A stretch of DNA of 64,000 bases from Tethya wilhelma. Taxonomy: Eukaryota > Porifera > Demospongiae > Tethyida > Tethyidae. The notes under the pieces are model-generated. The model saw nothing but the letters and a program-made list of their open reading frames with translations. It was not told the origin of the DNA and did not search any database. Shown here in pieces: positions 24,268-62,172 of this stretch (position 1 is the stretch's first letter; every line of letters starts with the position of its first letter). The DNA lies in NCBI GenBank assembly GCA_964030475.1, contig CAXIPT010000007.1, positions 3,108,463 to 3,172,462 of the forward strand, in the 5' to 3' direction. The position numbers and the translations under genes were made by a program.

Positions 24268-24300
<33 letters not shown>

Positions 24301-24455
24301 ATACACACATGCACATGCACACACACGCACATGCACACACGCACACACACACACAGATACCGTAGATCGGGAAATTTTCGCTGGTAAATATTTTGCCTGT
24401 AAAATTTTCGCGTAGTTTAATATTTGTCATCTGCGGATGATTCGGTAAGGATCGC

Positions 24456-24488
<33 letters not shown>

Positions 24489-25958: not shown

Positions 25959-28900
25959 TCAAAGACTAACATTAATATTAAAGACCTCACTCTTCTCCAG
26001 CTCATCACGATCATAATGGTTCTTGGTCTTTGGATTGGGTCCATTTGAAGCAAGATAAAGAGTCACATATTCATTCTGAGTAGACTCCTTCAAATTTACC
26101 TCAACAGTCTTTGCTTGTACACCAGGACTAGCAAGTGATGTCTCTTCAGAATCAGTAAATGAAACGATTCGTATTTTTCGTGCAGGCTTTTCTTGGCCTT
26201 TGGTAGTATCACCTATGGCTATGGCTTCCACATTACCTTCTTCACAAATGGAATTGTCGTGGCTCGTAGAATTTGATGGGCTTTCACCAAGGTTATTGTT
26301 CACTATATTTCCATGAAAGACACCTCTAGCATGTCTGTCAAGGATCCCAAACAGCAAACAGATCATTAGTCCAAAGAGAATGCTACCAAGCAGGAAGAGA
26401 ACTTGGAGTGCAATCTGAAGTGCACCAGATGTGTACATGGCAGGAAGACAGATTCCGTAGGTCAAGTCAAAAGCAAGCAGTAATGCGATTAGTTTATATG
26501 CATTTATAAGTCTTTTGTCATTCCACCTCAAAGATGTGCTCTTTAAGACAAGATGTACAATATCAACCATGAGAAGAAGCCAAGTGATGAAATGAGCTAG
26601 TACAAATGGTAGCAGGAGTCCAAACCAAAGAGCCCACTGTGATGGACCACAACTAAAATTATGACATATTATGTCATGATCATGACAGTTAACAGCTATG
26701 CATGGTGTATGGGTACGATGAGTATTGGTAGCATGAATGCATAATATTCTACATGGCATTATCATTAATCTCAGTAATCTGATTGCAACTTACAACTGTG
26801 TACTGGTATAGTTAGTTGAGTCAGGAGCAAAAGCACACACGACTATAATGATAGGCAAACCTGTTGTTAATAGAATAAGAAATAATGAATACAGTGGTCA
26901 AATCCCTCCCAACCAAAATAAATTAAATTTAAAAAAAGGGAAAAAAAAAAAAAAAAAAAAAAAAAAGAGAGAGAGAGAGAGCAAATTTAAACTTACCCCA
27001 GTTGATGGTCAAAGCTATTGCTTGTAGATATTTCCTGTCAGAAAAGGCAGTACTGCACAGAGTAACCATGTTAGCCACAGCCAACACTGCCACGAGAAAG
27101 ATATAGTGAAACAAAAATGCCACTACATTGCAGCTGGAGTTTTCTGTTCCATTGATGGTTGTAATGTATGCAGCCATATTGAGAACACTTAGGGCAATCA
27201 TTGCAGTGCACAAGTTCAGTACGGGAACCGTAAGCTGTTGAGAGTGTAATTTCCTGCAAAATAATATATTCACACAACTTGTAAAGGACCAATTCTGTAT
27301 GGGTCGACAGTATAAAGCATACTTGATGCAAACCAGGTACAGCACCATCACAGGAAGTATGAACAAGATGCCAATGAGTCCTCCAACATATGCTCCATGT
27401 CCCAGGCCAGTAGATGATGAGTTAATAGGATGCAGCCCTATAACAGGAGGCATAACAATCATTAGGACAATAGACATGCAACTACAGATTACATACCTTG
27501 TGGGGGGCCTGATGGTATGCCAACTGCAATACAATGATTAATAATCACAATAATCACAATACATTATTATGATGGTGATTATAATTTAAGGCTTACTCTG
27601 AAATGAGGCACCACTGGTATCCTGACCATTGGAGACATGACATCCATACTCCTTGATGTCTTCCGGTTGGACACACTTTACGACCAGGACTGATCTCACC
27701 ACTGTCACTCCACTATCATGATGGATCTGCTCCTCATGCACACTCATTCTAGATGTGTTTGATGGTGTAATGAGATTGCCCCCAATTGTCCAGGTAATTT
27801 GAGCAGGTCCTGAGACGCTATATCCAACACATGGCAGGAAGATTGATGCACCTTCAGTGAACTCTACATCACTGGGGGTGACAAGCATACCCACAGGATC
27901 TGAAACATGAATTAAAGTTATTATGAACTAATATCGTACTCACTATGGCCAAAACTTAATGCTCTTTCTTACTGTAAACATCGATGTCAAATTGTGATCT
28001 TTCTGTTGTGAATCCATTATCAGCAACGCAGCTGTACTTTCCTGAATCAGCTTCTTCTCCATCACAAATCTCCAATATAGACTTGTACAGTGTCAGCCCA
28101 CCCCTTCCAGAACTTAGTGAAATATCTCTTGATTCAACTTCAGAATGAATGGTTATTGCTCCGTCATTGTTCAAGATGCTGCTAGCACCAGCACTATCTG
28201 TCTTTGTCCAGTATACTGTTGGTGGAGGGAAACCAAAGGCCACACAAGACAAGAAAAGGGCTTCTCGGTTTCTTAACATCCTCAAATTGACGGGAGCAAC
28301 AACTAGCTTCATTGCTATAGAGATATGACAATAATTATTGCATACTATTACTGCTAGCATTCAGAGCATTTATAACACATACATACCTTGAGCTGAGATG
28401 TGGAAATCTGCACTGACATCACCCACAAGATTCTCAGCAACACATCTGTAGCCACCCTCAAGTGCTAACATCATATGATGAACCTCAAGAGTTGATCTCA
28501 CTAGTAGCAAACCGTCCGAGTGAACAACTGTGGTATGTATGAACATGTGACCATTTGTAGACAAAGGAACACCATCCTTGGTCCAGGTAACAGATGGATG
28601 AGGATAGCCAAGAACATCACAAGTGAAGATGTGACCCTCACCAATGCATATTGTTTGGTTGGTAGGTGGTACCAGGATACGGGGATGAGCTGTACAAAGA
28701 GAATTAAAATTTTATGATAGGTATAAGTATCACTGAATATTACTATACACAGTAACAGAGTAAAACAATTGGTGGCATGCATAATAGTACGTACCATTTG
28801 CTAGCAATGCAAAGGTTGAATTGACTGTATCATGTTCATCCGAGGCTGTGCACGTGTATTCTCCAATGGTTGTGTCACTGACACAAACCTCCAGTTTGGA

Positions 28901-30693
28901 TTGAGTGAATGCAATGCCTTCCCTCACAAGCTCTGAACTGGAGATCCCATCAGGTGGCTGCAGTTCAACTCCATTCCTACTCCAAGTGATGGTGGGATAA
29001 CTGTAGCCAAGGGCAGCACATATCCAAATGTGTCTTGTGTCAATCGTTGTCTCGCTCTCATTCTCTGGTGCGACTATCATCTTCACTGGAATTGTAGCTG
29101 TAACAACATTGTGAACAAAAATTTTAATTTCTGATCACTTGTACATGCATGGCCATTGTACTGGCAGCTGTGTTGTGATAAAAGACTGGAGGAGTCACAT
29201 TATGCATAGCTGACCGATCGACAGGCTAAAGAGCTTCCTATGTAGAATGCAATATGCCACAGTATTGTCTTACACATTGTATGTAAGATCATTTAGGATA
29301 TTGGTCACTTGAACAGTTAATTCTATGAAATGTGCTGAATAAAGCCTTCCAACTACTGGCGCCAACTGACTAACTCTGGGGTGGAGCGCTAACATTATTT
29401 AAAATACGTATGGCCAACAAAATTGCAATGCCAACTGACTACCTTAGGGGTGCATGTGCATGGCTGGCCCCAGGAGCAAGATACGTATCCAACAAAAGAC
29501 AGTGAGTGGTGTGTAGGGGGCAGACTATAGAGTCATAGTTTCCTTCCCATAAATTTACAACATCCCAGCTTCACATTAACTGTTTTAGTTGCCTTGGAGA
29601 TGTTATTCTTGCCCACACTATTACCTTATTTGAAGTGAGAATGGCTCATTGGTTTAGGCTGGGAGAATGAGGACACCAGGCAGACTCATTGATAGCTCAA
29701 CCTAAGACTAATCCCAGGAACTATGCAAGTAGTCCCGTAAACCAGCCCTGGGCCCACGCTTAAAGTGACCCATGGGAAGAAACAAAGCAGATTTTGAGTA
29801 AGGAAGGCATAGTTTTCAAATACAAGCAACAATTAAGTGCAACATGCTGCTGTCTCCAATTATAACTTGACAGTTAAGTTTCAAATGTGACCACATCAAA
29901 ACAAAATTAATGTCAGTTAATAATACTTTGCATTGCATAAGCAGCAGCTATAAAAAAAGCAATGAAGCTCTAGTAAAAGTGATCATGCACCTCTTACAAC
30001 TGATGGCTAATATGGCCTGGTTTGGTGATCCATGTGGTAAGCCACTAAACAAATTCTTTGTGCAATTATAGTACCCACATGCACTGCACAGTACTATTAT
30101 ACAGGTAAGATTGAGAATAAGTGATTCAACAAATTAAAGTAAGGACCTCCAATGCTACATGTACTATGCACATGCAGAGTTCATACCTGTGTAAGTAGTG
30201 AGCTCAAAAGATGCCGTAGTCTCACTCTCTCCCTCTACACTGGCCACACAGCTGTAGCTGCCTGCATCAGCTTGCTCCACTCCACATATCTTCAAAACCG
30301 ACTTGACAAAGACCAATCCACTTCTGTTTAGCATGGTTTGCTCCTGGATCTTAAACTTGCCCATCTGATTGTCATCGGAGAGAAGCTTGTCTCCTTTCTT
30401 CCAGCTGATCTCAACAGCTCCTCTGGCACTGTAGGCCACACAGGGCACCAGGACACTAAAGCCAGCAATGGACTGGGTGTCTTGTGGGGAAACCACAATG
30501 ACAACATCATGATCACCTGCATTTAAAAAATAATATTGTGATAGCATGAGCTATAGTGTAGTTGAAGTGATTTATCAACTTGAAAAGTAAAAGGTTAATT
30601 CTCTTTGTACTTACCATTGAGTGTTTGGGATGTTGCCATTATACAGGTTCCTATCAGGAGTTGAATGAGGGCGAACCAAAACAATTGAGTCAT
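25959..30693 (-). CDS. Gene E: five-Ig seven-transmembrane receptor without GAIN, 11 exons, 939 aa
   Basis: Minus-strand exons are 30615-30693, 30187-30516, 28795-29097, 28387-28689, 27973-28314, 27597-27899, 27497-27523, 27323-27437, 26997-27253, 26794-26860 and 25959-26652, totalling 2820 nt in phase. The signal peptide (about residues 1-25) starts MTQLFWFALIQLLIG. Five Ig domains follow, each on one phase-1 exon; then a short linker, then seven hydrophobic helices starting YVGGLIGILFILPVMVLYLV. Helices 4-5 share exon structure with gene F (67-nt exon) and the CxPxxWxxWFGLLLP motif, so this is a family-B2-like 7TM. No GAIN domain or GPS motif (C-x-C-x-HLT) is present in the roughly 25-residue linker. 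The tail has about 115 residues and contains EYVTLYL. Likely a surface receptor; ligand unknown. Confidence 0.8.
26941..26982. repeat. Poly(A)/(GA)n tract
   Basis: A homopolymer A run followed by GA repeats in the intron between gene E TM exons; on the coding strand it is a pyrimidine tract. Confidence 0.9.
29098..30186 (-). other. Gene E intron 2: no gene seen
   Basis: A 1.1 kb intron. It has two imperfect direct copies of a GCCAACTGACTA-containing segment near 29360 and 29432; nothing else is recognised. Confidence 0.5.
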
Positions 30694-30785
30694 ACTTATT
30701 AATTTTTTGAAATAGTATAGTTGCAGCTAAAACTTAGTAAGTTCAACTGTGCAACTTGACTGAGCTACAACAGAGTCGTAGCTCC

Positions 30786-30793
30786 TATTTATA
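30786..30793 (-). promoter_or_regulatory. TATA box of gene E
   Basis: TATAAATA followed by GG on the minus strand, about 95 bp upstream of the ATG. The same TATAAATAGG is found at the equivalent place upstream of gene G, so the promoters appear to be paralogous. Confidence 0.6.
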
Positions 30794-30995
30794 CATGCTG
30801 GTAACTATGCAATGTAGCCCATTGCTGCATGCATGGTCATGCTACGCCACATTAACTCAAGAATGTCTGTATAATAATTGTAGCCCTAATTTCAACTGTT
30901 GAAATGTTGACAAAATATGATGGTTTACAAAAATTAATAACAAAGAGACAGGCTATACAATTATAGGGGAAAAAATCATTGTATTCAACTCGAGT

Positions 30996-33732
30996 TTAGT
31001 GTGTCATCATATGCAGCATTGTGCTACCCATAAGCTGCATCAATACTGGCGGTAGTAGCTGCATTTGATTCATCTCTATCTCTGCTTCATTGTTGAAATT
31101 GTCAACTCTTAATGCTCTTTTTCCTTTCGTCTTTTGGTAGAATACTTTCACAAAAATTATTACAATTACTACAATTATGACAATGATTGGAAGAATGATT
31201 GCTACCAATTCACCTGTATTCACAAATCAAAATTAATATTAAAAATCACCCCTAGGTTATTAACTTCATTAAGACTGCCACTGTAGTGATCAGGCATAAC
31301 TCATGCCTGGGAATCGAAATGTCTGGCTACATGGCATCAATCATTGTCAGTCCATTCCAAAACTATGTAAACAGAGGATGCCTGAATACACTAACCTGTG
31401 CTCAAGGATCCGGACATTGCGAGAGAATAATTAGCTGTAGTAGTAGCCAGCTGTGTGCTTGGTGGAGAGGTTGTAGAAACAAGTGCTACATTCAATTATA
31501 ATAATTCCATGCATAATTTATTACAGTAGCCCCTTCTTTATCCATATAGCTAGTGAAAGAAAGCCTCCGGGCATATGGGGGCACGGCTATAGATTGGTTT
31601 ATTGATTGAATTGATGGTATGCAGTACCCATGTATACAGGAATAAAAGAAGATAGTGTAATATTAACATACCTTGGGCTGTGATATAGAAATCTGCACTG
31701 GCATCACCCACAAGATTCTCAGCAACACATCTGTAGCCACCCTCAAGTGCCAACACCATGTAATGAATCTCAAGAGTTGATCTCACTAGTAGCAAACCAT
31801 CCGAGTGAACAACTGTGGTATGTATGAACATGTGACCATTTGTAGACAGAGGAACACCATCCTTGGTCCAGGTGATAGATGGATGAGGATAGCCAAGAAT
31901 GTCACAAGTGAAGATGTGACCCTCACCAATACATATTGTTTGGTTGGTAGGTGGTACCAGGATACGGGGATGAGCTATAAATAGAAATGATAGGTATTAT
32001 CAGTGTCACTGAACTACAGAGCAACAGAATAAATATAGGTGATGTTGCATTGTAATACCATTTGCTAGCAGTGCAAAGGTTGAATTGACACTATCATGTT
32101 CATCTGAGACTGTGCATGTGTATTCTCCAATGGTTGTGTCACTGACACAAACCTCCAGCCTGGATTGAGTGAATGCAATGCCTTCCCTCTCAAACACTAA
32201 GCTGGAGATCCTGTCAGGTGGCTGCAGTTCAACTCCATTCCTACTCCAGGTGATGGTGGGATGGTTGTAGCCTAGGGCAGCACATATCCAAATGTGCTTT
32301 GTGTCAATTGATGTCACACTCTCATGCACTGGTGCAACTATCATCTCAACTGGAACTGTGCAACACAATAATAATAAAAAAACAAAAAATTAATATTACA
32401 ATAGCTATTGCTAGCATGCATATAACATAAACACAGGAAAGTGTTACCTTGAGCTGAGATGTGGAAATCTACACTGGTATCTCCCACAAGATTCTCAGCA
32501 ACACATCTGTAGTCACCCTCAAGTGCCAACACCATGTGATGAACCTCAAGAGCTGATCTCACTAGTAGCAAACCGTCTGAGTGAACAACTGTGGTATGTA
32601 TGAACATATGACCATTTGTAGACAAAGGAACACCATCCTTGGTCCAGGTGATAGAGGGATGAGGATAGCCAAGAACATCACAAGTGAAGATGTGACCCTC
32701 ACCAATGCATATTGTTTGGTTGGTAGGTGCTACCAGGATACGAGGATGAGCTATAGAAAGAGAAATTAAAGCTAATGGTACTATCACAGTCAACAATAAT
32801 ATTGAACCACATAGTACGTAGCGATATTGATGTAATACCATTTGCTAGCAACATAAATGTTGAATTGACTGTATCATGTTCATCTGAGGCTGTGCATGTG
32901 TATTCTCCAATGGTTGTGTCACTGACACAAACCTCCAGTCTGGATTGAGTGAATGCAATGCATCCCCTCACAAACACTGAGCTAGAGACCCTGTCAGGTG
33001 GCTGCAGTTCCACTCCATTCCTACTCCAAGTGATGGTGGGATGGTTGTAGCCAAGGGCAGCACATATCCAAATGTGTCTTGTGTCAATCGTTGTCTCATT
33101 CTCGTTCATTGGAGCAACTATCATCTTCACTGGAAACTTTAGCTATAGATAAGAATTGTGACCACTTGTAAGGTATAATAATTATTATTGTTGTCGTAGT
33201 TGCATGACATTGTGATGTACAATCATGTGTAGAGTGGAGGAGTGCACCAATTACTCTAATGCCATGGTAATAACAATTAATTTCCACACATTTGCTCACT
33301 TAGCAAATTAAATTAAATTTTAATGGTCACTTGCACATGAATAATTTATAAAATCCATGTTGTGCTCTGCGCATGCAAAGAAAAGAAGCTGTACTAGTGG
33401 GGATTGAAATAGAGTTATAGATCAATATTATTTTGCCTGGCAACATAACCATCAATCATTGATCTGAAAAATTAAAGCCTTACTCTTAGAGCTTTCAGCC
33501 TATAACATTAATGGCTATACATATTAATGAGCTCGAGGACACCAGGACATATGTACATACAGACTCTTTATATAGTTTAACCTATGAATATAATATATGT
33601 GGTAATATCCCAAACACTCAATGGTAAGTATATGCAAATGCAAAGAGAATGATTAATTGTAACTTTTCAAGCTATAGTTACACAGCAAGCTCCAATTAGG
33701 ATTTGAATGATGGTGAGCCAAAATCGAGTCAT
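30996..33732 (-). CDS. Gene G: four-Ig single-pass membrane receptor, 7 exons, 521 aa
   Basis: Minus-strand exons are 33682-33732, 32839-33142, 32448-32750, 32059-32355, 31672-31974, 31396-31485 and 30996-31213 (1566 nt in phase). It has a signal peptide (MTRFWLTIIQILIGACC), then Ig domains in an A-B-A-B pattern. Type A carries DTRHIWICAALGYNHPTITW; type B carries AHPRILV and CIGEGHIFTCD. Both types also occur once in gene E. A Ser/Thr-rich stalk follows (STTSPPSTQLATTTANYS), then the membrane helix LVAIILPIIVIIVVIVIIFV and a roughly 50-residue tail without recognised signalling motifs. The signal exon is altered by a small inversion, and the first Ig exon has one extra base at its 5' end, which together keep the frame if donor GTAACT is used. 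Likely a cell-surface recognition or adhesion protein. Confidence 0.75.
33598..33671 (+). other. Inverted fragment of a signal-peptide exon and donor
   Basis: The + strand here reads GGTAATATCCCAAACACTCA, ATG, then a GTAAGT donor and intron start. This corresponds to the end of the signal exon of gene E (ACATCCCAAACACTCAATG|GTAAGT, minus strand) and of gene H (+). In gene G it lies in the opposite orientation to the rest of the exon, so about 75 bp have been inverted in place. Confidence 0.7.
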
Positions 33733-33786
33733 TTTAGAACAGCTATAACAACTGGACTGATCAAGCTACAATAACTCTATAGCACC

Positions 33787-33794
33787 TATTTATA
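33787..33794 (-). promoter_or_regulatory. TATA box of gene G
   Basis: TATAAATA followed by GG on the minus strand, about 55 bp upstream of the ATG, matching the gene E promoter. Confidence 0.6.
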
Positions 33795-34167: not shown

Positions 34168-36066
34168 TCACAGCTTGGATTCTTTCTGGTCCTCATCCTC
34201 CTCCTCCAGATTCACCTTGACCTCATCATCTCCCTCAGAGGCAGCAGCAGTAGCAGCAGCAGTGGCCGCCTCTTCTCTGCTCTCCTTTCCATCCGCTGGA
34301 GCATCATCGGGGAAATCCTCGGCCATCGGGTTCTGGTAGGAGAGAGAGGAGAGAGTGTTGGCATCAAGCATGAAAGAGACGTCACCTCCGTTGGTTTCAG
34401 TCATCCCGATGGTGTCAATTCCTTCCTTCTGAGTGCTCTCATTGGTGAGGAATGCAGCCGGCTCACTGGGAATAATCCTACTGCGCTGACCAGCGCTTTG
34501 AAGCTTGTAGGTTTTGGAACGACCGGGCAGGCAGAAACGGAACAAGTGAATCCAAGAGTCCCTGATGGACTTGGAAACAAGGCAGTAGAACACGATCAGC
34601 ATCAATCCGACAAGGATGATAGACACAATGAAGATGACCTGGAAGATGGGACGTGCCACTCCAAGATCGAGAGTATTTGTAGCTGGCAGGCCGAATCCCC
34701 AGGCAATGAAGTAGAAGACAAAAGTCAAGAAAAGTCCGACGTACTCCACGAGCCAAGCATTTGGCTCGTTCTTATTCACCACGGCCATCTTCTTGTAGAA
34801 CACAATGACAATGAGCAGGACGGCAGTCACAACCAGGATGAGACCGGCAGGAAGCAGCAAGCCAAGCCAGTAGGGATAGGAGTTGGGACGACAGCTGTAG
34901 TTGGTAAACAACAAAGGAATACACAAATGAATAAACAATAAGCAAGCAAAGAAACAACAAACATTATAATTTTACTATAATATTATCTTACAAGTCTTCA
35001 TTGATGTAGTTCTCGTAGTCTGGAGCCAGTGAAATGATAACCACCAACACAGGAACAACTACAACAGAGACAAAATAAATATTATTGAGTCTTAGCAATA
35101 ATTATCAAAGTGTAGACTATGTATAGTCTAAATCTCTACGATTCAACTGGCCAGTATTCCACTATCAATTATGTTTATACTCAAATAACTTAAGCACTAA
35201 TATGCTACTCACTCCAATTGACGAGCAGTGCAGCCACGTAGGCTATCTTCTTCCTGGTGGTGGTGTAGGGTCGATAGAGCATGAAGAAGGCCATGGTCTC
35301 TATGGCGAGACTGCTCACCAGAATGGCATAGTGGAAGATGGCGGAGAAGGCCACACAGACATTTTCAGAGGTGTGGACAAAGGTGGAGATGATGTAGGAG
35401 GTGGAGAGGACTATCAACGACACACACAGGTTGATGAGGGTGATTCCAGTGTGACTTGATCGAAGGCTAGAAGTGGAATTATGAAAATGATCAAAGTTAT
35501 CAGCACAAGATACTGTACAAAATTTGGCACAAAAATGAGTGAGCAATGATATTTTCAAGCTTTGACCCATTTTCTCAGGATTGTTTGGTTGCTTCCCTAT
35601 GTGAGCAGTCACGAATAGTGAGTACACCATGACCATACCATGAACACTCAGTAAACCATTTTGTGACTGTTTACATGAGAAATCTACCGACTATTCGTCT
35701 TCATGCATGTGCTCCATTGCACATAATAGTATGGTCATACATTTGACAACTTTTGCATAAAAATAGAGGCAAATTTCCTCAATATCAAATGGCCGAAGCC
35801 GAACAATGAGGGGTGCAGAATTTTTAGAAGATACTGTATACAGTATGGATACTAGTGCACATACCTGGACAGGAGGTAGCTGAAGAGTACGATGAGTACC
35901 AAGAGTAGCATGATAGCGACGCCCACTATGGTGTAGGGGGAGAGGTTGGTGTCCGAGGGAACAAAAGAGGTAGGAGAGGGAGGAGTGGGAGGAGGCGAAG
36001 TGTCCACAACGATTGCAAATGAGGTCAGGTGGTCACACTGGCAAGTGGCTCGCTCTGCAGTCTCAC
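34168..36066 (-). other. Seven-transmembrane and tail region of gene F
   Basis: TM1 is at about 35870-35945 ([20 protein letters not shown]). TM2-TM4 are on 35213-35466, the end of TM4 on 34992-35058, and TM5-TM7 on the last exon, starting [16 protein letters not shown]. Exon lengths and phases around the 67-nt exon match gene E, showing common ancestry of the two 7TM units. The roughly 125-residue tail ends in a very acidic stretch rich in E, D and A ([12 protein letters not shown]). Confidence 0.8.
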
Positions 36067-46289: not shown

Positions 46290-46355
<66 letters not shown>

Positions 46356-48589
46356 TGTAGTGTGTGTGTGTCGCTGTGCTGTTGTTATGTGTGTGTGTGT
46401 GACTGTGTGTGTGTGCATGTGTGTGTGTGTGCATGTGTGTGTGTGCATGTGTGTGTATGAGTAAGTCTATTGTATAAAGGATACAGACACCTATACACTT
46501 ACTGATAACAGTTACTTCAACAGTCTCAGAGGTCACATTGAAGTCTCCATTGGATGTGAGGCTGTTATACGCCGTGCAATAGTACATCCCACTATCTCCA
46601 GTCTCACTATCAAACGTAATGGTGCTGGTGACATTAGCCTCTCTACCGGTGCTGGAGCTGGGCGTGTCAGTCTGACCAAGGTTCAAAGGCGTGGAGGTGC
46701 CACTCTTAAACCACTCGAACACAATGGGTAGAGTACCATATGCAGTGCAGGAGAGTGAGGCTGTGTTGGCTTCGAGAACAATAGCTGACTGGGGTTGGGC
46801 AGCAATGGACACAGGCACTACAACAGACAGAGAATGGTACATAAGTATAACATTATACATAGATAGATGTGTATTACCGTAGATCGGGAAATTTTCATTG
46901 TCAAAAATTTTCACTAGTTGATAAAAAATTATGCCAGGTGCTTAATTTTAGCTATTTTGACCAATTTGGTGATTGTCATATGTACGACATAAATTTTCCT
47001 GGGGATTAATTTTTACCACATATGTGTTACTTGTGAAAAGCTTTATAACAAAATTTCCCTATCTATAGTGCTTAAGAAGGTATACAATACATTTTGGTGT
47101 TGAGACTTCATTCTAGAATTGAATTGAAATGATTTTATCTCTAGAAAAAGGTTGCACAAAAGGTAGTCTAAAGAGCTCCCCTAATGAAGTACAGTAAAAT
47201 AACTATTCACTTCATGTTTGAGGTACATAAACAACTCTTTCAAATTCCAGCATCTTACCTTCAGCAGTGATATTGACATTTGCTGATGGTTGGGCTCCAC
47301 CTGCCAGTCCATTGGAGGCACTACACATAACTTGGAATTGATCGACAACCTCAGCCGAACACAAGTAGAGAATGGACTGCACAAACTGTCCTCCACGTCC
47401 TTCAATCACTTCAGTGGAGATGATAACATCGTCCGTTCCATTCATCACCTCCACACTGTCCTTGCTCCAGGTGATCTCAGGGAGAGGGTAGCCAGTGGCA
47501 ACGCACGTCAGGGCCACGTTGGAATTGAATATGGGATAGACGTTCTCGGGTATGATAACCAAAGTGGCAGGGATTGAGATGATGGTGACGGTGAACGAAA
47601 ACACATCTGAAGAGACTTGATTCGAAACGGTGCAGTTGTACTGGCCATTATCAGAGTCGTCTGTGCTACAAATCTCCAGAACGGACTGCACAAAGAGCTC
47701 TCCATCCTGGTAGAAGGTCTCCTCATAGACGATGACTCTTCCCGAGTCGGTCTCGTTGTTTAACATCACAGCTCCGTTGGTCCACGTAATTGTAGGGTTA
47801 TCCCCACTCGCCACACAGGTTGCTAGGAGAGAACTGCCAGCATTGATAGTGACATCTTCAGGAACAATTGTCAGGAAAACTAGAGATGGGATAAAAACAG
47901 AAACAGTATTATGTTAATCTAAAGGTTTTTGTTCTGACGACCTTTACCCATTCAAGACAATGCCCAACTGGTAAAGTATCGACAAAAATAAATACCAACT
48001 TTCTTTGCAATTTTTAACACAGCTACATAATAAGTACTCCCTATGGACAAGTATCTATGTGTGCACACACACATACCTGGATCCTCAGCAGTCAAAACAA
48101 ACGTAGCGCTACTATTTCCAACTGAGTTGAGTACGGTACATCCATAGGTGCCACTATCATCCTCACTCAAGCTGCAGATTTCCAAGAAGGACTGAGCAAA
48201 AATCCCTCCACTCTCCTCTATCACCTCGTGGATGATGGTGACCCTGGAATTATTGGACTGCACTTGTCCCTCTCGTGTCCAGATGATGTCAGGAGCTTCA
48301 GTCCCACCGTGTCCAACACATGTGAAGATGGCTGTGGAACCACCTACGAAGAAGTTCTCTTCACTTGGCTTGATCACGATCTCAGGTTGAACTAATGTCG
48401 AGAGGGGGGGTGGGGGACATGAAAGAGTGGAGTAAAATTAAAAAAGATGTAAATGTTGTCACAAATAATTTAAACTACTTTTTTTTCCAAATGTGTACAA
48501 CATGTGAGTAGTTAGAGAGACTCTCTAGAGAGTGAGTTAAACACAAAATATGTACACACTACTCTGTTCAACTGTGAATTGTTGTTTGC

Positions 48590-48650
<61 letters not shown>

Positions 48651-51600: not shown

Positions 51601-54600
51601 ATTATGTTTACCCGGCTCTACTTCATGTTTTCAACATTTAATACTTTAACAGGAAGGAGCCTGGGAACAAGGCCACATCTTGTATACAAACCTGTATTAT
51701 CAATCACTGTTAGCTGAGTGACTTCTGTGTCAGAGGTGTCTCCACTCTCAACAATACAGCTGTACTCTCCACTGTCCATTGTCTCCACACTGCACACCTC
51801 CAAGATGGACTGGACAAATGTCAGACCTCCTTCTGTCACTAACTCCTCATAGATGGTGACCTGAGAGAGAGAAAACAGACACCCAATTCTCAAGTTAGCT
51901 AGCTACTACAGAGGTGCATGAAAATGGACAAATACAAGTGAACTACCTACCCTTGTGTCATTCATGAGACTGACACCACCCCTCTCCCAAGAGATGGTAG
52001 GAGTAGGGTAGCCATATCCAACACATGTCATCAAGGTAGTGGATCCAACGACAACAGTGGAATTAGTCGTCAAGACAACAACTTCAGCTGGGACTAATAG
52101 AAATTGGAAGCAGGTATTGCAAATCACTTTTAAAGAAAACTGTAGAAAATAGCTCTGGAGCTAAGGTTCTTACGCCTTTTGAAAGCATAGGAGCTAGCTC
52201 ACATTAAAAACGTGACAAATTGATGGGTCTGAGCAGAACTATAAACACAAAATGAGATAATTTTTTTTTTAAACTTAATTCTTGTAGAGCTTTTAATAAA
52301 AATGAGTATTTTTTTGCAAGTATTTTACTATTAGAAGTCCTACTGTAGTCTGTATAGGATCACACATCATTTCAAAGCTAGTAGTGTGCTTATGGTAGGG
52401 AGGGGTCCAACATATCTCAAGTACTGCTCAAATAGTCCTTTTCACGTAAAGCAAAAGAATTTCGCTGGCCCGTTAATGAAGCGTGACGTCACGGCTGGGG
52501 TACATTCATCCGCCATCTTGGGGTACTTTTGTATGGAAGTCAATGGGGAAATGTGCAAAATTGAGCGCTGCGTATTTCCGCGTGCACACCGTATATTCTA
52601 AATATGAGAGATGCAAAGAAAAGTTCAAAGCAAGCTCTTTCCAACGCAAAAAGAACCAGGACGGTCAGACGCTCAGAAACAAAGCTACAAGTGCAAGAAT
52701 ATCTACTGGTTTTGTACTTATTTTGGCTTATATCTTGAGAGAGAAAATATTCTAAAGTCTCTAAGGTATGTATAGTAAGCAACAGAATATATTCAAGGCA
52801 AAATCACACTTTATCCCTCTTTCTACAGTCCAGAAATAGCACTTAGAGCCCGTCTGTCTTCTTTTTAGCAACGCTCATAGTAAATAGTCATGCAAACATT
52901 TTAGAAACAAACAGAACAGTTAGTATATGCTCTAGCACTACTTTTACAACAGTATTGGAGCTAAATAGCACTTGTAGAATTTAACAAAGTCTTTTTAAAG
53001 CCTACTTTTTGTTCTCAAACCACGGAAATTCTTGCACTTGTAGCTTCGCTTCTGAATGTCTGACCGTCCTGGTTCTTTTTGCATTGGAAAGAGCTTGCTT
53101 TGAACTTTTCTTTACATCTCTCATATTTAGAATATACGGTATGCACGCGGAAATACGCAGCGCTCAATTTTGCACATTTTCCCGTTGACTTCCATACAAA
53201 AGTACCCCAAGATGGCGGATGAATGTACCCCAGCCGTGACGTCACATGTAATTAAGCGCTAATGAATTCCTTAGAGCTTTACGTGAAAAGGACTATTCAT
53301 TTGTACTTGCTAAAGAAAACAAACATACCAGTGTTGTCATTCACCACGAGCTGAGTGACTTCTGTGTCAGAGGTGTCTCCACTCGAAACAATACAGCTGT
53401 ATTCTCCACTGTCCATTGTCTCCACACTGCACACCTCCAAGATGGACTGGACAAATGTCAGACCTCCTTCTGTCACTAGCTCCTCATAGATGGTTACCTG
53501 AGAGGAAAAAAAAAACAAAAAAACCCCAATAAAACTTCCAACTTCTTACTATAGTTACATGTAGCAATAATAAAATTTAATAACAAAAGGCAGAGACATA
53601 CCCTTGTGTCATTCATGAGACTGGCACCACTCCTCTCCCAAGAGATGGTAGGAGTAGGGTAGCCATATCCAACACATGTTATCAAGGTAGTGGATCCAAC
53701 GTCAACAGTGGAATTAGATGTCAGGACAACAACTTCAGCTGGGACTAGAAAAAGGGTACATTGCTAAACATTAGAGTTGAGACCAAATAGAAGATAAACA
53801 TACCTGTGCTATCAATCACTGTTAGCTGAGTAACTTCTGTGTCAGAGGTGTCTCCACTCTCAACAATACAGCTGTACTCTCCACTGTCCACTGTCTCCAC
53901 ACTGCACACCTCCAAGATGGACTGGACAAATGTCAGACCTCCTTCTGTCACTAGCTCCTCATAGATGGTGACCTGAGAGAGAGAAAACATACCCAATTCT
54001 CAAGTTAGCTAGCTACTATAGAGATGCATGAAAATGGACAAGCATATAAGCATATAAGCAAACTACCTACCCTTGTGTCATTCATGAGACTGACACCACT
54101 CCTCTCCCAAGAGATGGTAGGAGTAGGGTAGCCATATCCAACACATGTTATCAAGGTAGTGGATCCAACGTCAACAGTGGAATTAGATGTTAGGACAACA
54201 ACTTCAGCTGGGACTAGAAAACGGTACATTACTATAGTCATTGTCAAACACAGGTAATATTAAGACAATGATGGTGAACAATTAAGCCTCAGCAAAATCA
54301 ACCATAGCTAGTGCGCTTATGTACTGTAGATACCATAGGCTATGATAGCCTTGTTTCCAGGCTCCTCCTTCACGAATATTTTCTTCCTTATTTTCAAAGA
54401 AATATTTTGCAAAGGAGGAGCCTGGGAACGAGGCTAAGGCTATGACATCGTGTCACATATAGCTGAAGGAGGGTCTAGGCTCACTAGACTATATACAGCT
54501 ACGAATGTATCAAGAATGTAACAACAATAACATCTAGTACATCTATCCAGGCTGAGGTCAGCTGACCTGACAACTGTAATAAAGTATAAGCAGCTACAAG

Positions 54601-57600
54601 TCACATACTATGAGCTAGGCTATGATTGTGCATGTACTGAAATGCTGAGTGGTTGTCAGATAGCTATAGCATAGATGGGCCACCTGAACCTTTGCTGAGT
54701 TGTCTGGTGGCCATGCATGCAGCTAATAGCAAAGCCATAGATGTCAATACATCTAGATGTTAATATGGAAAAAAGCATACAACCCCCTTCTGTCTTTCCA
54801 AGTAACACTGACCAACAGCAACAGCAGTATCAAGCAGCACCATACAGTGAACATCACTGAATTCAACACAAATTCTAGATAACACACACTAGATCAATAG
54901 AACTAGCCTTGAAGCTAAGTGCTCAGAAGCACAAAGCCCCAAATCTCAGCAAAAATCACGTTTTGACAGCAAAAATGTAATTTTACAAGATCATTCAGAT
55001 TTATGAACACAAGTACCATCAATTTTGTTGCTAGAACTGCCTTTCTTGAGATTTCAATGGGGCACAGACAGATAAACAGACAGAAAATGACTATCATAAA
55101 TTAATCAATATCTTCTACATGTGCTATGTACCTGCAGAGGCTTAACAACAACAAAATATTTACAAACCTGTGATGTCTATCACTGTTAGCTGAGTGACTT
55201 CTGTGTCAGAGGTGTCTCCACTCTCAACAATACAGCTGTACTCTCCACTGTCCACTGTCCCCACACTGCACACCTCCAAGATGGACTGGACAAACGTCAG
55301 ACCTCCTTCTGTCACTAGCTCCTCATAGATGGTGACCTGAGAGAAAAGACATGATATTCAACTTCCCACTAGAGTCAGCACTACAACAAGGGCAAGACAT
55401 ACCCTTGAGTCATTCATGAGACTGACACCACTCCTCTCCCAAGAGATGGTAGGAGTAGGGTAGCCATATCCAACACATGTTATCAAGGTAGTGGATCCAG
55501 CAACAACAGTGGAATTAGTTGTCAGGACAACAACTTCAGCTGGGACTGAATGAATGCAAAAGTTTAACAAATTATTCACTGCCTACCATGCACCATACAA
55601 GTATACAAACCTGTGACGTCAATCACCATGAGCTGAGTGACTTCTGTGTCAGAGGTGTCTCCACTCTCAACAATACAGCTGTACTCTCCACTGTCCACTG
55701 TCTCCACACTGCACACCTCCAAGATGGACTGGACAAATGTCAGACCTCCTTCTGTCACTAGCTCCTCATAGATGGTGATCTAAACAAGACAGATCAATCA
55801 TATTAATGCCAATTTACAAAAAATTATGATTTTTTTCTCCCATCAACATTGACTGCCACCTAAGGCTTAAGGTTACGGACTACCGTTTGCTCATGAATAT
55901 GTTAATGAGCATGCGTAGTTATTTTAGTGCGGAGCAAACCGCAACTTGTGCAAAACCGTTGGCATGATTTTTTGGCGTCAGTTTTTTTCCAAAGTATTCC
56001 GCGTGTGACCGTATAAAGTGGTTCTTTTAACGGGATTGTATGTGGGCAGGGCCAGATCTAAAAAGAAATTTGACAGCACGTTCAACGACAGAGAAACGGC
56101 AGCTTTTGTCTTCGCTTCTGCTGCAGAATCACGACAAGAAGTAAGTTTGAGCTACCATTTTTTTCAAACTATAAGAAATAGAAGCCAACCGAATAGATCT
56201 GGCCCTGTAGACAGTTGGAAATAAGCGTCTAACGCTTCCATAATCGATCTAGAACGTTGCCTCTTGAAATAAATTGACGCCAAAAATTTTTGGCTACTCT
56301 TTCATTGGTATCTCTGAGCGTAGTAAGCCTGCAAAGGTTGTCTTTTTGCTGTTTAGGCCTGAAAGTTAAAAAGAATGACTGTCTAAGCTGTTGTTTAAAA
56401 TTTGGCAGGGAATTGCTGCAGCAATTTGCCAAAAAGAAACTTTATATTCTTGCTCATTAAATATTTATAGCAGAATGTACCCCGTAACCTTAAGGAGTGC
56501 TTTACTCAGTTTGACTGATATTGTGTACAATTCGTGGCTTGGGAAATACATAGTTTGGAACCTAAATTTTCGAGTCTACACTTGAGGTCTTTCTTTCAGC
56601 GTAAGTAACATGACCTTGACGAGATAGCACAGGGAGGCTTCAACTATAGTCTTTACAATTATATAGTTGCTCTCAATAGTTATACCTCAAGTTAGGAAAT
56701 GGACTAATTTGGGATATAAATTTGACAAGATGATCATCTACCAAATTATAGTTGAAAAAAATTTATACATCTAAGGGTTTGACAGTCATGCAATATCCAA
56801 ATAACACTCTGCTCACCAACCCTGACAAATTTTTGACCGTCGATATTTCAGGCTATACGGTACCCATAGCTTGTTAATGATATGTCAGTAAGGGATACAC
56901 TAGTCCAACCACAGGTATGTACAGTAACCATCTGATGCCAAGATATTAAAACATACCCTTGAGTCATTCATGAGACTGACACCACTCCTCTCCCAAGAGA
57001 TGGTAGGAGTAGGGTAGCCATATCCAACACATGTTATCAAGGTAGTGGATCCAATGTCAACAGTGGAATTAGATGTCAGGACAACAACTTCAGCTGGGAC
57101 TATAGAACAATTGCTTACAGCTAAAGAGTTGTGGATAAAGGAAAATACACACTAACATACCTGTATTATCAGTCACTGTTAGTTGAGTGACTTCTGTGTC
57201 AGAGGTGTCTCCACTCTCAACAATACAGCTGTACTCTCCACTGTCCACTGTCTCCACACTGCACACCTCCAAGATGGACTGGACAAATGTCAGACCTCCT
57301 TCTGTCACTAACTCCTCATAGATGGTGACCTGAGAGAGAAAATAAATTGACAGATTGCATAGAATGTTGTACCTCAAATCTCCCAACTTAATGACAAAAA
57401 GTTCAGCTGTATGCTCCTCAGTGAAAATTTACTCAAGATTTAAAGATTCAATATCTACTTACCCTGGAGTTATTCATGAGACTGACACCACTCCTCTCCC
57501 AAGAGATGGTAGGAGTAGGGTAGCCATATCCAACACATGTTATCAAGGTAGTGGATCCAGCAACAACAGTGGAATTAGTTGTCAGGACAACAACTTCAGC

Positions 57601-59766
57601 TGGAGCTACAAAAGAAGATAGGTATATAAAAAGAAAAGAACTTATCTTACTGTATGTCGATAAATCTCAACTATTATCTGTATATTGTTACCTGGAGTAA
57701 CTGTCACTTGCCATCCAGCAGTCTCTGAGCCCAAATCATTGGTGGCAGTGCAGTTGAACTGGCCTTCATACTCTTGGGGTATACTACAAACCTCCAGTAC
57801 AGACTGCACCATATCAATGCCTTGCTCGCTCACAATAGAATCGTAGACGGTCACTAGAGCAGATGTGTCGTTATTCACCTCCACGCCACTACCCATGCTC
57901 CACGAGATACTGGGCAGAGGGTTGCCATAAGTGACGCAAGTCATGAGCACCGTGCTTCCCTCATTCACCGTCGTATCGCTAGGTCTTATGGTCAGTTCAG
58001 CACTCACTGGTGGTGAAACCAAAGAGAGGGACCAGCTGGAGCTGTCATTGCCGACAACGTTGGTGGCCGTGCAGGAATACTCTCCCACTCTGTCCAACTG
58101 TACACTGCACACTTCAAGGATAGACTGGGTGTAGTTGAATCCACTCTCGCTGACAAAGGAGGTATAAACGTTGAAAAGCTCCGATGTATCGTCAACCGGG
58201 CTTCCATCCTTGAAAAAGGATATCGTTGGCTGGGGGGTGCCGTACGCCACACAGGTCATGAGGACAGCACTGTTGTACTCTACGGACTGGTTCTGGGAGA
58301 CAATGACCAACTCGGGGGCTAGTGGTTCGAACGTCAGTTCGAGAGTCCAAGATCGTGATACCATTCCAGCGTTGTTGGAGGCCGTGCAATTGTACACACC
58401 AGTCATCTCAACTCCGATGCTGCATACCTCCAAAATGGACTGAACGAAGCCAATTCCACCTTCAGTGAGCATCTCGGTGGTGATAGTGACTAAAGCAGAA
58501 CTGTCGTCCACTGGTTGTCCATCTATGGTGAAGCCGATGGAAGGAGGAGGGATGCCGGTGGCCACACACGCCATGAGGACGGTGCTGCCATACTCCACGG
58601 TGCTGCTCTTGGGAATGATGGCCAGTTCAGGTAGGACGTTGGTGATGGTCACGTTCCACGACCGAGTGTTGGAGCCCAGGCTGTTACTAGCAACACAAGA
58701 GTAGGTTCCCGATGTGAGTAGTGTCACACTGCACACCTCCAATATGGCTTGAGCGAAAGTGGCACCGCCTTCAACGATGAGTGTTTGGTTGATGTTCACC
58801 AGATCGGAGGCATCGTCCACTGGTATGCCATCCTTCATGAAGGTTATTGAAGGCAATGGGACACCGTACGCCACACAGGCCATGAGTACAGTGCTGCGAA
58901 GATCCACAACCTTACTCTCGGGGACTATAACCAGCTCGGCTGCTTGAGGAAGGGTACTCAGTGACAGAGTCCACTGCTGAACAGACGTAGGACCAATACC
59001 GTTGGTGGCACTACAAGCATACTGTCCCACGTCTGCTTCAGTCACGCTGCAGATCTCAAGAATGGCCTCGGTGAAGATGACTCCATTCTCGGTGATTTGT
59101 GTCTGCATGATGGACACACGGTCTGAACTGACGTCTACAGGGGTTCCGTCCAGAGTGAAGTTGATAGTCGGGGTAGGCCAGCCATAGGCCACACACGGCA
59201 TCAGCACAGTGCTACCATACTCCACTGTATCGTTCTCAGACACTATGACCAGTTCAGAAGCTTGTGCACCAACCAGGGTAATGTTCCAACTGTTGGTATC
59301 AACAGTAGAGCCAGACACAGCTGTGCACGAATACTGTCCAACATCACCGACATCCACACTGCACACTTCCAGGATGGACTGAGCAAACGTGACTCCATTT
59401 TCAACGACATCCGTGGTAGTGATGTTGATCTTGGCCCCCGCCACTACAGCCTCACCGTCTAGAGACCAAGAGATGGTAGGTGGAGTGCTGCTTCCAGTGC
59501 CAGTGGTGGTTGCCACGCAGGCCATATACAGGGCACTGCCATAATCCACAGACGCTGAATCGGGAACTATCACAAGCTCCGCTTCTAAAATTCATATGTA
59601 TTATAGGAAAAATTTCAAGTTGTGAGCACATGGCTGATGCACACTCAATAACACAAACGAGGCACATGCAATAGCACAAACCTTGTCCAGTAGTCAATTG
59701 TATCGAACATATTATCGGTAGAAGGAACAGGAAGGCTAGCTTCTTTGAGACAGGAGCTCTTGCCAT
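34168..59766 (-). CDS. Gene F: giant adhesion GPCR, about 27 Ig, EGF, SEA-like, HormR-like, GAIN/GPS, 7TM; about 44 exons
   Basis: The signal exon is 59682-59766 ([20 protein letters not shown]). In order, on the minus strand: one exon with six Ig domains (57692-59584); eight two-exon Ig domains (50566-57605); Ig exons 49811-50116, 48996-49319, 48077-48391, 47259-47879 (two domains) and 46503-46817; two damaged Ig exons (45368-46280); Ig 44840-45175; EGF 42138-42257; Ig 41477-41736; SEA-like 41301-41392 and 40961-41136; HormR-like 40426-40650; Ig 39821-40132; Ig+EGF 39085-39519; Ig 38669-39009; SEA-like 38492-38589 and 38218-38426; HormR-like 37742-37983; GAIN 37022-37135, 36862-36956 and 36364-36781; GPS+TM1 35865-36163; TM 35213-35466, 34992-35058 and 34168-34894. 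Without the damaged pair the exons sum to 11175 nt, exactly 3725 codons. This supports one gene. Probable adhesion receptor with autoproteolysis at the GPS. Confidence 0.78.
36000..36110 (-). other. GPS autoproteolysis motif of gene F
   Basis: The sequence [11 protein letters not shown], then [15 protein letters not shown], has the conserved W, paired cysteines and the HL|T cleavage tripeptide of an adhesion-GPCR GPS. Cleavage between L and T would free the N-terminal Ig ectodomain and leave a short tethered agonist starting TSFAIVV. Cleavage competence is inferred from the motif. Confidence 0.88.
37320..37531. repeat. Palindromic MITE, CCGTATAGCTCC family (copy 4)
   Basis: An almost perfect palindrome in a gene F intron, with TACCGTATAGCTCC at the left and GGAGCTATACGGTA at the right, consistent with insertion at TA. 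Confidence 0.85.
42258..43460. other. Gene F intron sequence upstream of the nested gene
   Basis: No exon is seen. A stretch at 43190-43435 resembles 20634-20814 (a CAACTTCAGCACCCTGGTTT-like block, then GGTCAAGTGT), so repeat DNA may supply the nested gene's 5' region. Confidence 0.45.
43461..44549 (+). CDS. DXD-type glycosyltransferase, single exon, nested in gene F intron
   Basis: A 362-aa type II membrane protein. It has a short basic N-terminus (MMKKTR), a signal anchor at about residues 7-24, a Ser/Thr-rich stem with N-glycosylation sites, then a catalytic domain. Visible motifs are IVHYVKLA (about 110-117), a [16 protein letters not shown] block (about 192-207) and SDFDVV with the DXD metal/nucleotide-sugar site at residues 211-213. 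This layout fits the Gly_transf_sug (DXD, alpha-1,4-galactosyltransferase-like) family acting in the Golgi; donor and acceptor are unknown. The gene is intronless, lies on the strand opposite gene F and is wholly inside its intron between an EGF exon and an Ig exon, which suggests a retrocopy or independent insertion. The start is the first ATG pair before the anchor. Confidence 0.75.
   Translation: MMKKTRIMILIGGLFAALPVAIVYHTTHQGPGDNPLASQISSIIHSSSNLEVLTKVKENTDQLLNVTLAHSLPSQPFNKTASKVNPGCITRKLIDYKTSKSETKYHHPPIVHYVKLAPNLTTSGVELTFRDYIAMMSAYKFLRPERILIHSNVKVSGKYFDLSQQWNGTTVLAHKVVRRIHLNKKRVRYVQHAADYIKISQVLKHGGLVSDFDVVIINGTRLKEQQRNSECIIAQQNTIPNLGFVSCIKNSPLIQRWRDSYHDNFEPNGWLHNSAYVPLNILTQDQSVCYNIHLDDTVCTRPHYAIAKTQWLTHNGVPHWRIKTAAHYFLRQHMLPQDTELLASDTSLGEMIRYVFDYRVPW
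45368..46280 (-). pseudogene. Two damaged Ig-domain exons of gene F beside an assembly gap
   Basis: Exon 45368-45678 reads as an Ig domain only across three frames: an [10 protein letters not shown] part, an [19 protein letters not shown] part, then [16 protein letters not shown]. It is 311 nt, not a multiple of three. The next one (45959 to the gap) begins [20 protein letters not shown] and then meets stops and frame changes. The 19-N gap and a long (GT)n tract abut it. Sequencing or assembly indels are as likely as real decay. Skipping both exons keeps the gene F frame. Confidence 0.6.
46281..46460. repeat. (GT)n microsatellite next to gap
   Basis: A long GT-dinucleotide tract with interruptions, immediately after the 19-N gap at 46262-46280. 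Confidence 0.92.
46874..47068. repeat. Palindromic MITE, CGGGAAATTTTCG family
   Basis: TTACCGTAGATCGGGAAATT at the left pairs loosely with AAATTTCCCTATCTATAG at the right, in a gene F intron. Confidence 0.55.
48591..48648. repeat. (CT)n microsatellite
   Basis: Perfect CT dinucleotide run in a gene F intron. Confidence 0.95.
49429..49518. mobile_element. MULE-type MITE, about 90 bp
   Basis: The ends TAGCCTTATTCCCAGGCTCC and, inverted, GGGAATGAGGCTA. The flanks ATGTGCATA and ATGTACATA form an imperfect 9-bp duplication. Same family as 54346-54436. Confidence 0.65.
51440..51673. mobile_element. Diverged MULE-type MITE
   Basis: CTTGTTCCCAGG near the left is inverted as CCTGGGAACAAGG at the right, matching the family at 54346-54436 with more divergence. 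It lies in an intron of the Ig array. Confidence 0.45.
52418..53308. mobile_element. Inverted-repeat DNA element, about 890 bp, in gene F intron
   Basis: Two arms of about 285 bp (52418-52705 and 53022-53308) are near-perfect inverted copies, starting AATAGTCCTTTTCACGTAAAGC-like at both ends. Each arm holds the same open frame of about 75 codons ([20 protein letters not shown]...), with few differences. The roughly 315-bp centre has no long frame. No transposase is recognised, so it is probably a non-autonomous foldback element that inserted between two Ig units. Confidence 0.8.
54346..54436. mobile_element. 91-bp MULE-type MITE with 9-bp target duplication
   Basis: The ends TAGCCTTGTTTCCAGGCTCC and, inverted, TAGCCTCGTTCCCAGGCTCC. 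Flanked by perfect AGGCTATGA at 54337-54345 and 54437-54445. Confidence 0.85.
54900..55155 (+). repeat. Dispersed repeat with ACAGACAGAC tail
   Basis: The longest copy of the family also at 14205-14420 and 23214-23365; it contains AAGTACCATCAATTTTGTTG and a CACAGACAGATAAACAGACA tail. In a gene F intron. Confidence 0.55.
55866..56494. mobile_element. DNA element with CTTAAGGTTACGG ends, about 630 bp
   Basis: The left end CTTAAGGTTACGG is inverted at the right end (CCGTAACCTTAAG). An internal pair, GGGCCAGATCT (about 56047) and AGATCTGGCCC (about 56195), is also inverted. It lies between the two halves of one Ig domain of gene F. No transposase recognised. Confidence 0.7.
57692..59584 (-). other. 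Single exon encoding six Ig domains of gene F
   Basis: 1893 nt, phase 1 to 1. Each domain starts with a PELVIV- or AELVIVP-like strand, has a MxCVAYG cysteine motif, an ILEVCSV/ILEICSV segment and a Y-x-C closing motif. These are the most membrane-distal domains. Unlike the array that follows, the six have diverged from one another. Confidence 0.88.
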
Positions 59767-60550: not shown

Positions 60551-62172
60551 ATGAGTCAGGCTCAATTTTGGTTTGCCATCCTGATTGGAACCAGTGTGGT
60601 AACATCTCAAACACCAAGTGGTAAGTGAATAACTTTTAATAATGTCTAATAAGCTATTATAACACATAATAATACTGGCTCATGGGTTGAACCTGCAAGC
60701 CCCATGAAATACTGGCAAGCATCAACAGTTGTACCTGTAAGAAATCACAGTTCATAAGATTAAAACAGTTTACATCCCATGCAAACACTACAGCTATACA
60801 GAATATATGCATGCTGGTTATAGTTATTAAATTCTTGCATAGTATGTAGTTGCCTTATATTGGTCATACAGACAGTGATATTATATATAGTATATGTTTA
60901 GAATCTATTAATTTGGCATTGATTCTATTTAATAAATACACACCTATGGATTATTATTACTTCCTGGTGTTATTTGAGGCCAAGCCATGAACAAATCTGC
61001 ATGTCAGCATGGTGTCGTTATTCAAGTCTTAGTCATTGTGACTCAATTAATGAGCCATTTTCACTTCAAATAATATTATATGCACTCCTCCAGTCTTTAT
61101 CACAGCACAACTGCCATATAGGACTACAAGTGATAACTAATTTTAATTGTTTTCATCGGTGTTGTTTATACAGTTTCTGTGAAGATGATAGTTGCACCAG
61201 TAACCAAGAATGTGACGTTGATTGACACAAGACACATTTGGAAATGTGTTGCTCTAGGCAAAAATCATCTTCATATCACTTGGAATAGAAATGGAGTCGA
61301 ATTGGCACCCGAAGGGTTGTTCAGCTCAGTGTTTGAGAGGGGAGGCATTGCATTCACTCAATCCACACTGGAGGTTTGTGTCAGTGACACAACCANGAGG
61401 TGTGCAGTGTGGAGACAACGGACAGTGGAGAGTACAGCTGTATTGTTGAGAGTGGAGACACCTCTGACACAGAAGTCACTCAGCTAACAGTGATAGATAA
61501 CACAGGTTTGTAGTGCATGCATGGTATATAGCCAGTAGATAGTGATCAAATTATTGGTTAAATTTTGTGTTCAGTCCCAGCTGAAGTTGTTGTCCTGACA
61601 TCTAATTCCACTGTTGACGTTGGATCCACTACCTTGATAACATGTGTTGGATATGGCTACCCTACTCCTACCATCTCTTGGGAGAGGAGTGGTGTCAGTC
61701 TCATGAATGACACAAGGGTAGGTAGTTTGTCCATTTTCACAATTTTGTGATAACTATATAGCTTGAGAATCAGGCATCTATTAATTTTTCCTCTCTCTCA
61801 GGTCACCATCTATGAGGAGCTAGTGACAGAAGGAGGTCTGACATTTGTCCAGTCCATCTTGGAGGTGTGCAGTGTGGAGACAGTGGACAGTGGAGAGTAC
61901 AGCTGTATTGTTGAGAGTGGAGACACCTCTGACACAGAAGTCACTCAGCTAACAGTGATTGATAGCACAGGTATGTTAGTGTGTATTTTCCTTTATCCAC
62001 AACTTTAGCTGTAAGCAATTGTTCTATAGTTCCAGCTGAAGTTGTTGTCCTGACAACTAATTCCACTGTTGTTGCTGGGTCCACTACCTTGATAACATGT
62101 GTTGGATATGGCTACCCTACTCCTACCATCTCTTGGGAGAGGAGTGGTGTCAGTCTCATGAATGACACAAGG
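60551..62172 (+). CDS. Gene H: Ig receptor gene, 5' part only, with an internal assembly join
   Basis: The signal exon 60551-60620 (MSQAQFWFAILIGTSVVTSQ) matches those of genes E and G. Exon 61174-61505 begins as a type A Ig domain (LIDTRHIWKCVALGKNH...STLEVCVSDTT), then after the N at 61395 turns into the second half of an array-type exon b (EVCSVETTDSGEYSC). The two parts meet at a shared LEVC-like position. Exons 61575-61717 (a), 61802-61970 (b) and 62030-62172 (a) follow and are nearly identical to the gene F array. The last a exon has no b partner in the remaining 1.8 kb. The true gene is probably longer, with collapsed sequence at 61395 and more exons beyond the window, or the 3' part was lost. 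Confidence 0.6.

Follow-up and report, generated by a model that had tools for sequence, protein, structure and literature searches.

Adhesion G-protein-coupled receptors (GPCRs) with immunoglobulin (Ig) domains, with HRM domains and without a GPS are already known from the sponge Amphimedon, where, in the part of the published survey drawn on here, the receptors combine Ig, EGF, HRM and GPS domains, the GPS being present in 28 of 40 and absent in up to 12, and the GPS-less members have short N-termini (PMC4302439). The window analysed here, a stretch of 64,000 nucleotides from the sponge Tethya wilhelma (C7:3108463-3172462 of a 124.6-Mb, 204-contig assembly), contains three neighbouring genes, E, G and F, which are best explained as a small, locally expanded cluster of Ig-superfamily contact receptors, built from symmetric phase-1 Ig exons and homogenised exon by exon, a reading to which we assign a probability of about 0.62. 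The Alr1/Alr2 complex of Hydractinia resembles E, F and G in being a cluster of Ig-superfamily membrane genes, but, as far as the excerpted source goes, a locus of that type is a large cluster of single-pass Ig genes with extreme allelic polymorphism, whereas one of the three genes here is single-pass and two encode seven-transmembrane (7TM) proteins (PMC11067881). In a receptor tyrosine kinase with an Ig-like domain from Geodia cydonium, known here through a citation of the 1994 paper (in PMC12018476), Ig modules of a sponge are likewise joined to a membrane part that signals, which is a kinase there and a 7TM domain in E and F. The locus offers a concrete case of an early animal lineage placing the same Ig module on G-protein-type and single-pass membrane parts, and an example of Ig exons staying alike while introns drift. 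All gene models are predictions from genomic sequence, with minus-strand splice sites and phases located by script.

Gene E joins ten exons into an intact frame of 959 amino acids, from an ATG at 30693 to a stop at 25959 on the minus strand (spliced model), and its introns are all of phase 1 except the last, which is of phase 2.

25959..30793, minus strand: gene E, open spliced model with consistent phases, TATAAATAGG at 30784-30793
30693-30615, 30516-30187, 29085-28795 and 28689-28387, minus strand: 5′ exons of E, for the signal, Ig0, type A and type B domains
28314-27973, 27899-27597 and 27523-27497, minus strand: middle exons of E, for IgC, IgD and a linker
27437-26997, 26860-26794 (67 nt) and 26652-25959, minus strand: 3′ exons of E, for transmembrane segments TM1 to TM4, the 67-nt exon, and TM5-7 with the tail

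The predicted product runs from a signal peptide through five Ig domains and a short linker, encoded by the 27-nt exon, to seven hydrophobic segments; a Pfam search of the whole protein picked up the five Ig stretches, with no hit to a 7TM, GPS or GAIN family. Since the fifth Ig domain passes via the 27-nt exon directly into TM1, there is no room for a GAIN domain, and the description of E in the initial annotation, as an Ig receptor ending in 7TM without GAIN, holds. In this E differs from the GPS-less receptors of Amphimedon, as they appear in the excerpted survey, by retaining a full Ig ectodomain (PMC4302439). Its 7TM part is identical to that of F at 63 of 212 positions (30%, 90.5 bits), and in both genes the exon after TM4 measures 67 nt and is entered in phase 1 and left in phase 2; the F paralogue has a corresponding 67-nt exon (counted by hand). 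Because of this identity, the common intron phases and the 67-nt exon, the 7TM of E is considered adhesion-GPCR-derived. E is therefore classed as a derivative rather than a member of the adhesion GPCRs, having the 7TM homology but no GAIN/GPS before TM1. No description of this locus or of a GAIN-less Ig-7TM sponge receptor was found among the matches listed in a search of the open literature by titles and abstract openings, with most subscription papers outside its scope.

Gene G carries the type A and type B exon pair of E twice, followed by a stalk, a helix and a short tail, in a body that is fully open.

30996..33794, minus strand: gene G, TATAAATAGG at 33785-33794, ATG at 33732, body open and in phase
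33129-32839 (A), 32750-32448 (B), 32349-32059 (A) and 31974-31672 (B), minus strand: Ig exons of G, four Ig domains by Pfam
31485-31396 and 31213-30996, minus strand: stalk exon, and exon for the transmembrane helix and short tail
33600..33671 (approximate limits), minus strand: part of the G signal exon with its donor, inverted relative to E by reverse-complement local alignment of E and G

Besides the signal, G has one strongly hydrophobic helix, as expected from its earlier description as a stalk and single-helix gene. The signal exons of E and G had been called similar, which is true of the first part; some 70 bp of the G exon, including the GTAAGT donor, are inverted relative to E, with 29 of 31 bases matching in the inverted alignment, GGTAAGTA included. 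Among five GT donors tested for this exon, one leaves the frame open, and it lies far from consensus (score -5.9). Because its signal-exon splice donor lies within the inverted stretch, G may be damaged, or it may use a further 5′ exon. Elsewhere in the genome, a 133-bp, 98.5% copy of a G intron with its exon edges (window 32343-32476) lies between unrelated flanks at C1:11859372-11859504 (positions 1501-1633 of the fetched locus L013).

The kinship of E and G is evident at several levels. Their A-B pairs are 86.5-87.6% identical in nucleotides over 696-740 bp; of 28 genomic places matched by type A, four reach 60% identity or more, and these four are all in the window. In a tree of the Ig domains, type A of E, G and the fragments termed H forms one clade (support 0.98) and type B of E and G a second (0.995); these two clades are sisters (0.89), and eight repeated units of F form a clade of their own (0.999). 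The exact TATAAATAGG occurs twice in the window against 0.21 expected, 91 bp upstream of the E ATG and 53 bp upstream of the G ATG, which bears out the proposed shared promoter, while matches with one mismatch (nine against 5.4 expected) are not clearly enriched. In the protein database G drew 14 hits, none above 28% identity, with no close relative of types A and B beyond this locus, and in the assembly the E/G block recurs only as a 77% piece, namely H, and the 133-bp fragment, with no second copy. Alignments, Ig tree and the homology of signal exons and promoters together support local duplication with module sharing between E and G well. The wider claim that all the adjacent genes share Ig modules survives for E with G but not for F or H: neither the open reading frame (ORF) survey nor the Ig tree found type A or B domains in F, or units of the F array in E or G, so module sharing ties E to G and not to F, and the link to H depends on an assembly junction. 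Varied membrane modules were correctly recognised, E being 7TM without GAIN, G single-pass and F a giant Ig adhesion GPCR of the sponge kind. As to the domains themselves, type A and the array units have in common a third cysteine ('LEVC') ahead of the one in the F strand, which type B lacks; a structure model of type A was poor (mean pLDDT, the predicted per-residue confidence, 66).

Movement of Ig modules across membrane types looks, from the tree, to extend beyond this locus, since the Ig domains of scaffold C62 intermingle with those of F. By eye, the ORF list of C62:3001-33000 contains exons with several Ig domains that lead into single helices; a long tail containing tyrosines follows one of these helices, and another lies ahead of kinase-like exons. 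The order of the latter, Ig exons before transmembrane and kinase-like exons, recalls the receptor tyrosine kinase of Geodia cydonium.

Copies of these Ig exons are more alike than the introns beside them, in agreement with the earlier suggestion of homogenised receptors. Between A-B pairs, divergence at fourfold sites is 0.07-0.14 vs 0.30-0.44 in introns; Fisher tests of the three comparisons give p values of 1e-5, 1e-4 and 3e-3. Over all synonymous sites, where the contrast with introns is weaker, 20.7 of 136, 22.5 of 137 and 23.2 of 137 differ (0.15-0.17; type A alone 0.19-0.21, H being left out of the type A counts, as a one-codon deletion puts its rows out of register). By these counts the two pairs of G are no closer to each other than to the pair of E, which fits exchange between genes and leaves the order of duplication unsettled. 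The array of F shows a pooled divergence of 0.057 at fourfold sites and one of 0.38 in the introns within units, and introns are the more diverged in 21 of 21 pairs; seven of the eight units entered this test, unit 2 with its 1,177-bp intron being left out, and the pairs are not independent. A shuffled baseline, run for the A-B introns only, is exceeded by E-G2 (identity 0.699 vs a shuffled maximum of 0.549) and G1-G2 (0.658 vs 0.604) and not by E-G1 (0.562 vs 0.573). The exon copies may thus be kept alike by exon-limited homogenisation, in the manner of conversion tracts. With dN/dS of 0.26-0.37 for A/B and pooled pN/pS of 0.61 and 0.32 for the two array exons, all below 1, these tests give no sign of diversifying selection. 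The array does not hold Dscam-type diversified variants of one domain position, its units being 91-99% identical per exon; with near-identical copies it is the opposite of a diversifying array.

Gene F is far larger and, on the evidence of a colinear paralogue that keeps its domain order, is best read as one giant adhesion GPCR gene.

34168..59766, minus strand: gene F, giant Ig adhesion GPCR, from ORFs, splice sites, Ig count, Pfam and the colinear paralogue
59766 onwards, 59585-57696 and 57603-50576, minus strand: start of the ectodomain, with the signal ORF, a six-Ig exon and eight two-exon Ig units
50576..57603, minus strand: the array, eight Ig units, phase 0 inside and phase 1 between units, 91-99% nucleotide identity per exon
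downstream of the array, minus strand: eleven further Ig domains, two EGF, two HRM-like segments, a presumed GAIN region, GPS and 7TM
36163-35865, 35466-35213, 35058-34992 (67 nt) and 34894-34168, minus strand: GPS and 7TM exons, in a model that may miss a small exon in the first loop

With a profile built from local Ig domains, 25 such domains are recognised from 59585 to 38744 if two-exon units and split matches are each taken as one and two weak rows (6.6 and 5.4 bits) are omitted; a further partial Ig domain is likely beside a gap. The array-type Ig domains ascribed to F are thus present as eight two-exon units of one clade, each of which could, by its phases, be skipped in frame. The GPS scores 52-54 bits against PF01825 (cut-off 22.5), with HL-T at the expected place by eye, and the 7TM 42.4 bits against 7tm_2 (PF00002, cut-off 20.6); of the ending first proposed, GAIN/GPS-7TM, the GPS and 7TM parts are therefore confirmed by Pfam and the GAIN part is presumed from its position. 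The two HRM-like segments score 20.8 and 23.9 bits, below the Pfam cut-off of 26.2. A 'SEA-like' label tried for two conserved segments had no Pfam support and is not used. Set beside vertebrate 7TM proteins of the ADGRL/ADGRE type, in a comparison of the 7TM parts, the F 7TM matches (best solved structure adhesion GPCR L3, ADGRL3, E 3.3e-14) and that of E has no direct match. In its Ig, EGF, HRM(-like) and GPS content F is like the Amphimedon receptors, and differs from them, as excerpted, in its 25 recognised Ig domains with a homogenised array (PMC4302439).

The paralogue lies about 330 kb away on the plus strand (C7:2800376-2813471), and its ORFs follow the order of F: Ig, HRM-like, Ig, Ig-EGF, Ig, HRM-like, presumed GAIN region, GPS and 7TM. 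Among the translated matches listed, all 14 are colinear from the six-Ig exon to the 7TM, which is 42-50% identical piece by piece; in the Ig tree, two paralogue domains adjoin their positional equivalents in F, both pairings below 0.8 support. In the protein database the six-Ig exon of F, unlike G, has close relatives among its 12 hits, with 63% identity to P0001 and 32% to a Geodia barretti protein. Other 7TM genes were seen at C1:25.2 Mb (L058), C12:0.5 Mb (L059) and C9:2.48 Mb (L060), with rows of seven matches on C1 and four on C9; by eye, L058 and L060 contain HRM- and GAIN-like segments, and the GPS looks degenerate in L058 and in L059. An element of about 867 bp with terminal inverted repeats of about 270 bp (91%) occupies an array intron of F (52431-53297); at other genomic sites at least nine long copies of it, of 759-885 bp and 92-99% identity, are present.

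A fourth gene, H, had been described as joining type A and array-type domains, and this has to be withdrawn: H is a truncated fragment pair and at most a putative gene.

61180..61395, plus strand: H fragment 1, a type A exon cut mid-domain at an assembly junction
61396, no strand: junction, a single N between the two H fragments
61397..62206, plus strand: H fragment 2, array-type half domains, ending after a first-half exon

The A/array join coincides exactly with the single N; in the next 20 kb the ORF list shows no further recognised Ig or transmembrane domain, and no match in that stretch was listed when the genome was searched with type A and with an array unit. Neither false duplication nor repeat was found at this junction when it was tested like the other single-N junctions, and because of this negative result it is regarded as an unresolved gap, not a proven misjoin.

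Beyond the anatomy, homology and duplication described so far, a mechanism of homogenisation, ligands, signalling and function may be proposed. Symmetric phase-1 Ig exons would have been duplicated and shuffled to build the genes, with exon-limited homogenisation keeping the copies alike. The receptors would most likely bind ligands on neighbouring cells or matrix, adhesion or contact sensing being suggested by Ig rods that sit on adhesion-type 7TM proteins. For F, in which an Ig rod leads into GPS-7TM, signalling could follow the usual GAIN-tethered route; in E the rod would couple directly to the 7TM domain, with no cleavage; and G, the single-pass sibling of E, would only adhere, compete or escort, a non-signalling role proposed because its tail shows no recognised signalling motif. 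Several points weigh against such a cluster of contact receptors. The E 7TM alone matches no Pfam family and no solved structure convincingly (Protein Data Bank, best E 1.8), a protein-database comparison with 4109 candidates gave no match either, and its class is assigned by way of F because these direct matches are absent. Pfam finds no GAIN in F (ORFs 36271-36798 and 36822-36956), where the domain is deduced from the GPS and position; F spans two gaps (41470 and 46262-46280), and its paralogue has single-N gaps of its own (2801794 and 2804448). G lacks a consensus signal-exon donor. Finally, the quicker introns could partly reflect constraint at synonymous sites.

Other explanations have been considered, none of them probable. 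The strongest, although still unlikely, is that this is an ordinary adhesion-GPCR locus, in which F and E serve development or tissue cohesion and G and H are by-products of duplication becoming pseudogenes. The lost donor of G, the truncation of H at both ends and the abundance of adhesion GPCRs in the genome (52 GPS matches, a count that includes one or more assembly duplicates) fit such decay, but the body of G, comprising A/B pairs, stalk and helix, is open throughout, and the copies show dN/dS below 1, an argument for past constraint. Vertebrate paired receptors such as KIR and LILR carry similar ectodomains on different signalling stems. That E and G form such a system outside vertebrates, with one homogenised A-B head on a 7TM protein (E) and on a non-signalling single-pass stem (G) and exon-limited conversion matching the heads, is a rather speculative extension; the similar ectodomains and differing stems are the likeness, while the stem of E is 7TM and a pattern search of the E, F and G tails found no immunoreceptor tyrosine-based inhibitory or activation motif (ITIM, ITAM), and one YxxL in E.

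An allorecognition role, raised in the initial annotation, is possible but unsupported. A polymorphic allorecognition or immune locus, in which Ig module content and alleles vary between individuals and decide what follows contact, would suit clustered, duplicated and homogenised Ig receptors with differing membrane parts, as well as the instability of the locus to which truncated fragments and an inverted exon point; yet it appears improbable, given that the E/G block is present once in the assembly, that the pN/pS and dN/dS values are those reported above and that the tails gave no ITIM or ITAM pattern. If polymorphic, the locus would become a candidate in the search for the molecules behind self-recognition in sponges, which are poorly known. 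We consider it least probable that part of the pattern is an artefact of assembly or gene modelling, with F being two genes or array copies having been collapsed or misordered. Two gaps in F and one at the H join, a false duplication at one of 20 single-N junctions and an opposite-strand ORF within an F intron would speak for it, but E, G and the 3′ end of F share the gap-free stretch 24268-41469, the array lies within another (46281-61395), and the paralogue shows the same domain order as F.

Single Ns number 21 in 281,808 fetched bases, from loci that partly overlap. Among the 20 junctions tested, the one long false duplication is a perfect tandem repeat of 797 bp whose copies abut at a single N (C1:18281301-18283400, L061), an assembly artefact that inflates the GPS count, and two show short repeats (40 and 53 bp). 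As possible controls for the contrast between exons and introns, three other tandem GPS copies were considered: an assembly duplicate, a copy of 1 kb at 99.9% and an adjacent pair (L062) with 34 mismatches over 842 bp. The opposite-strand ORF (43425-44549, plus strand) is a single-exon, 374-aa glycosyltransferase-like frame (Gly_transf_sug, 16.8 bits against a cut-off of 23). An exon for a small, secreted-looking peptide occurs twice on the minus strand, at 18486-18746 and 24680-24922, with 89% nucleotide identity over 144 bp.
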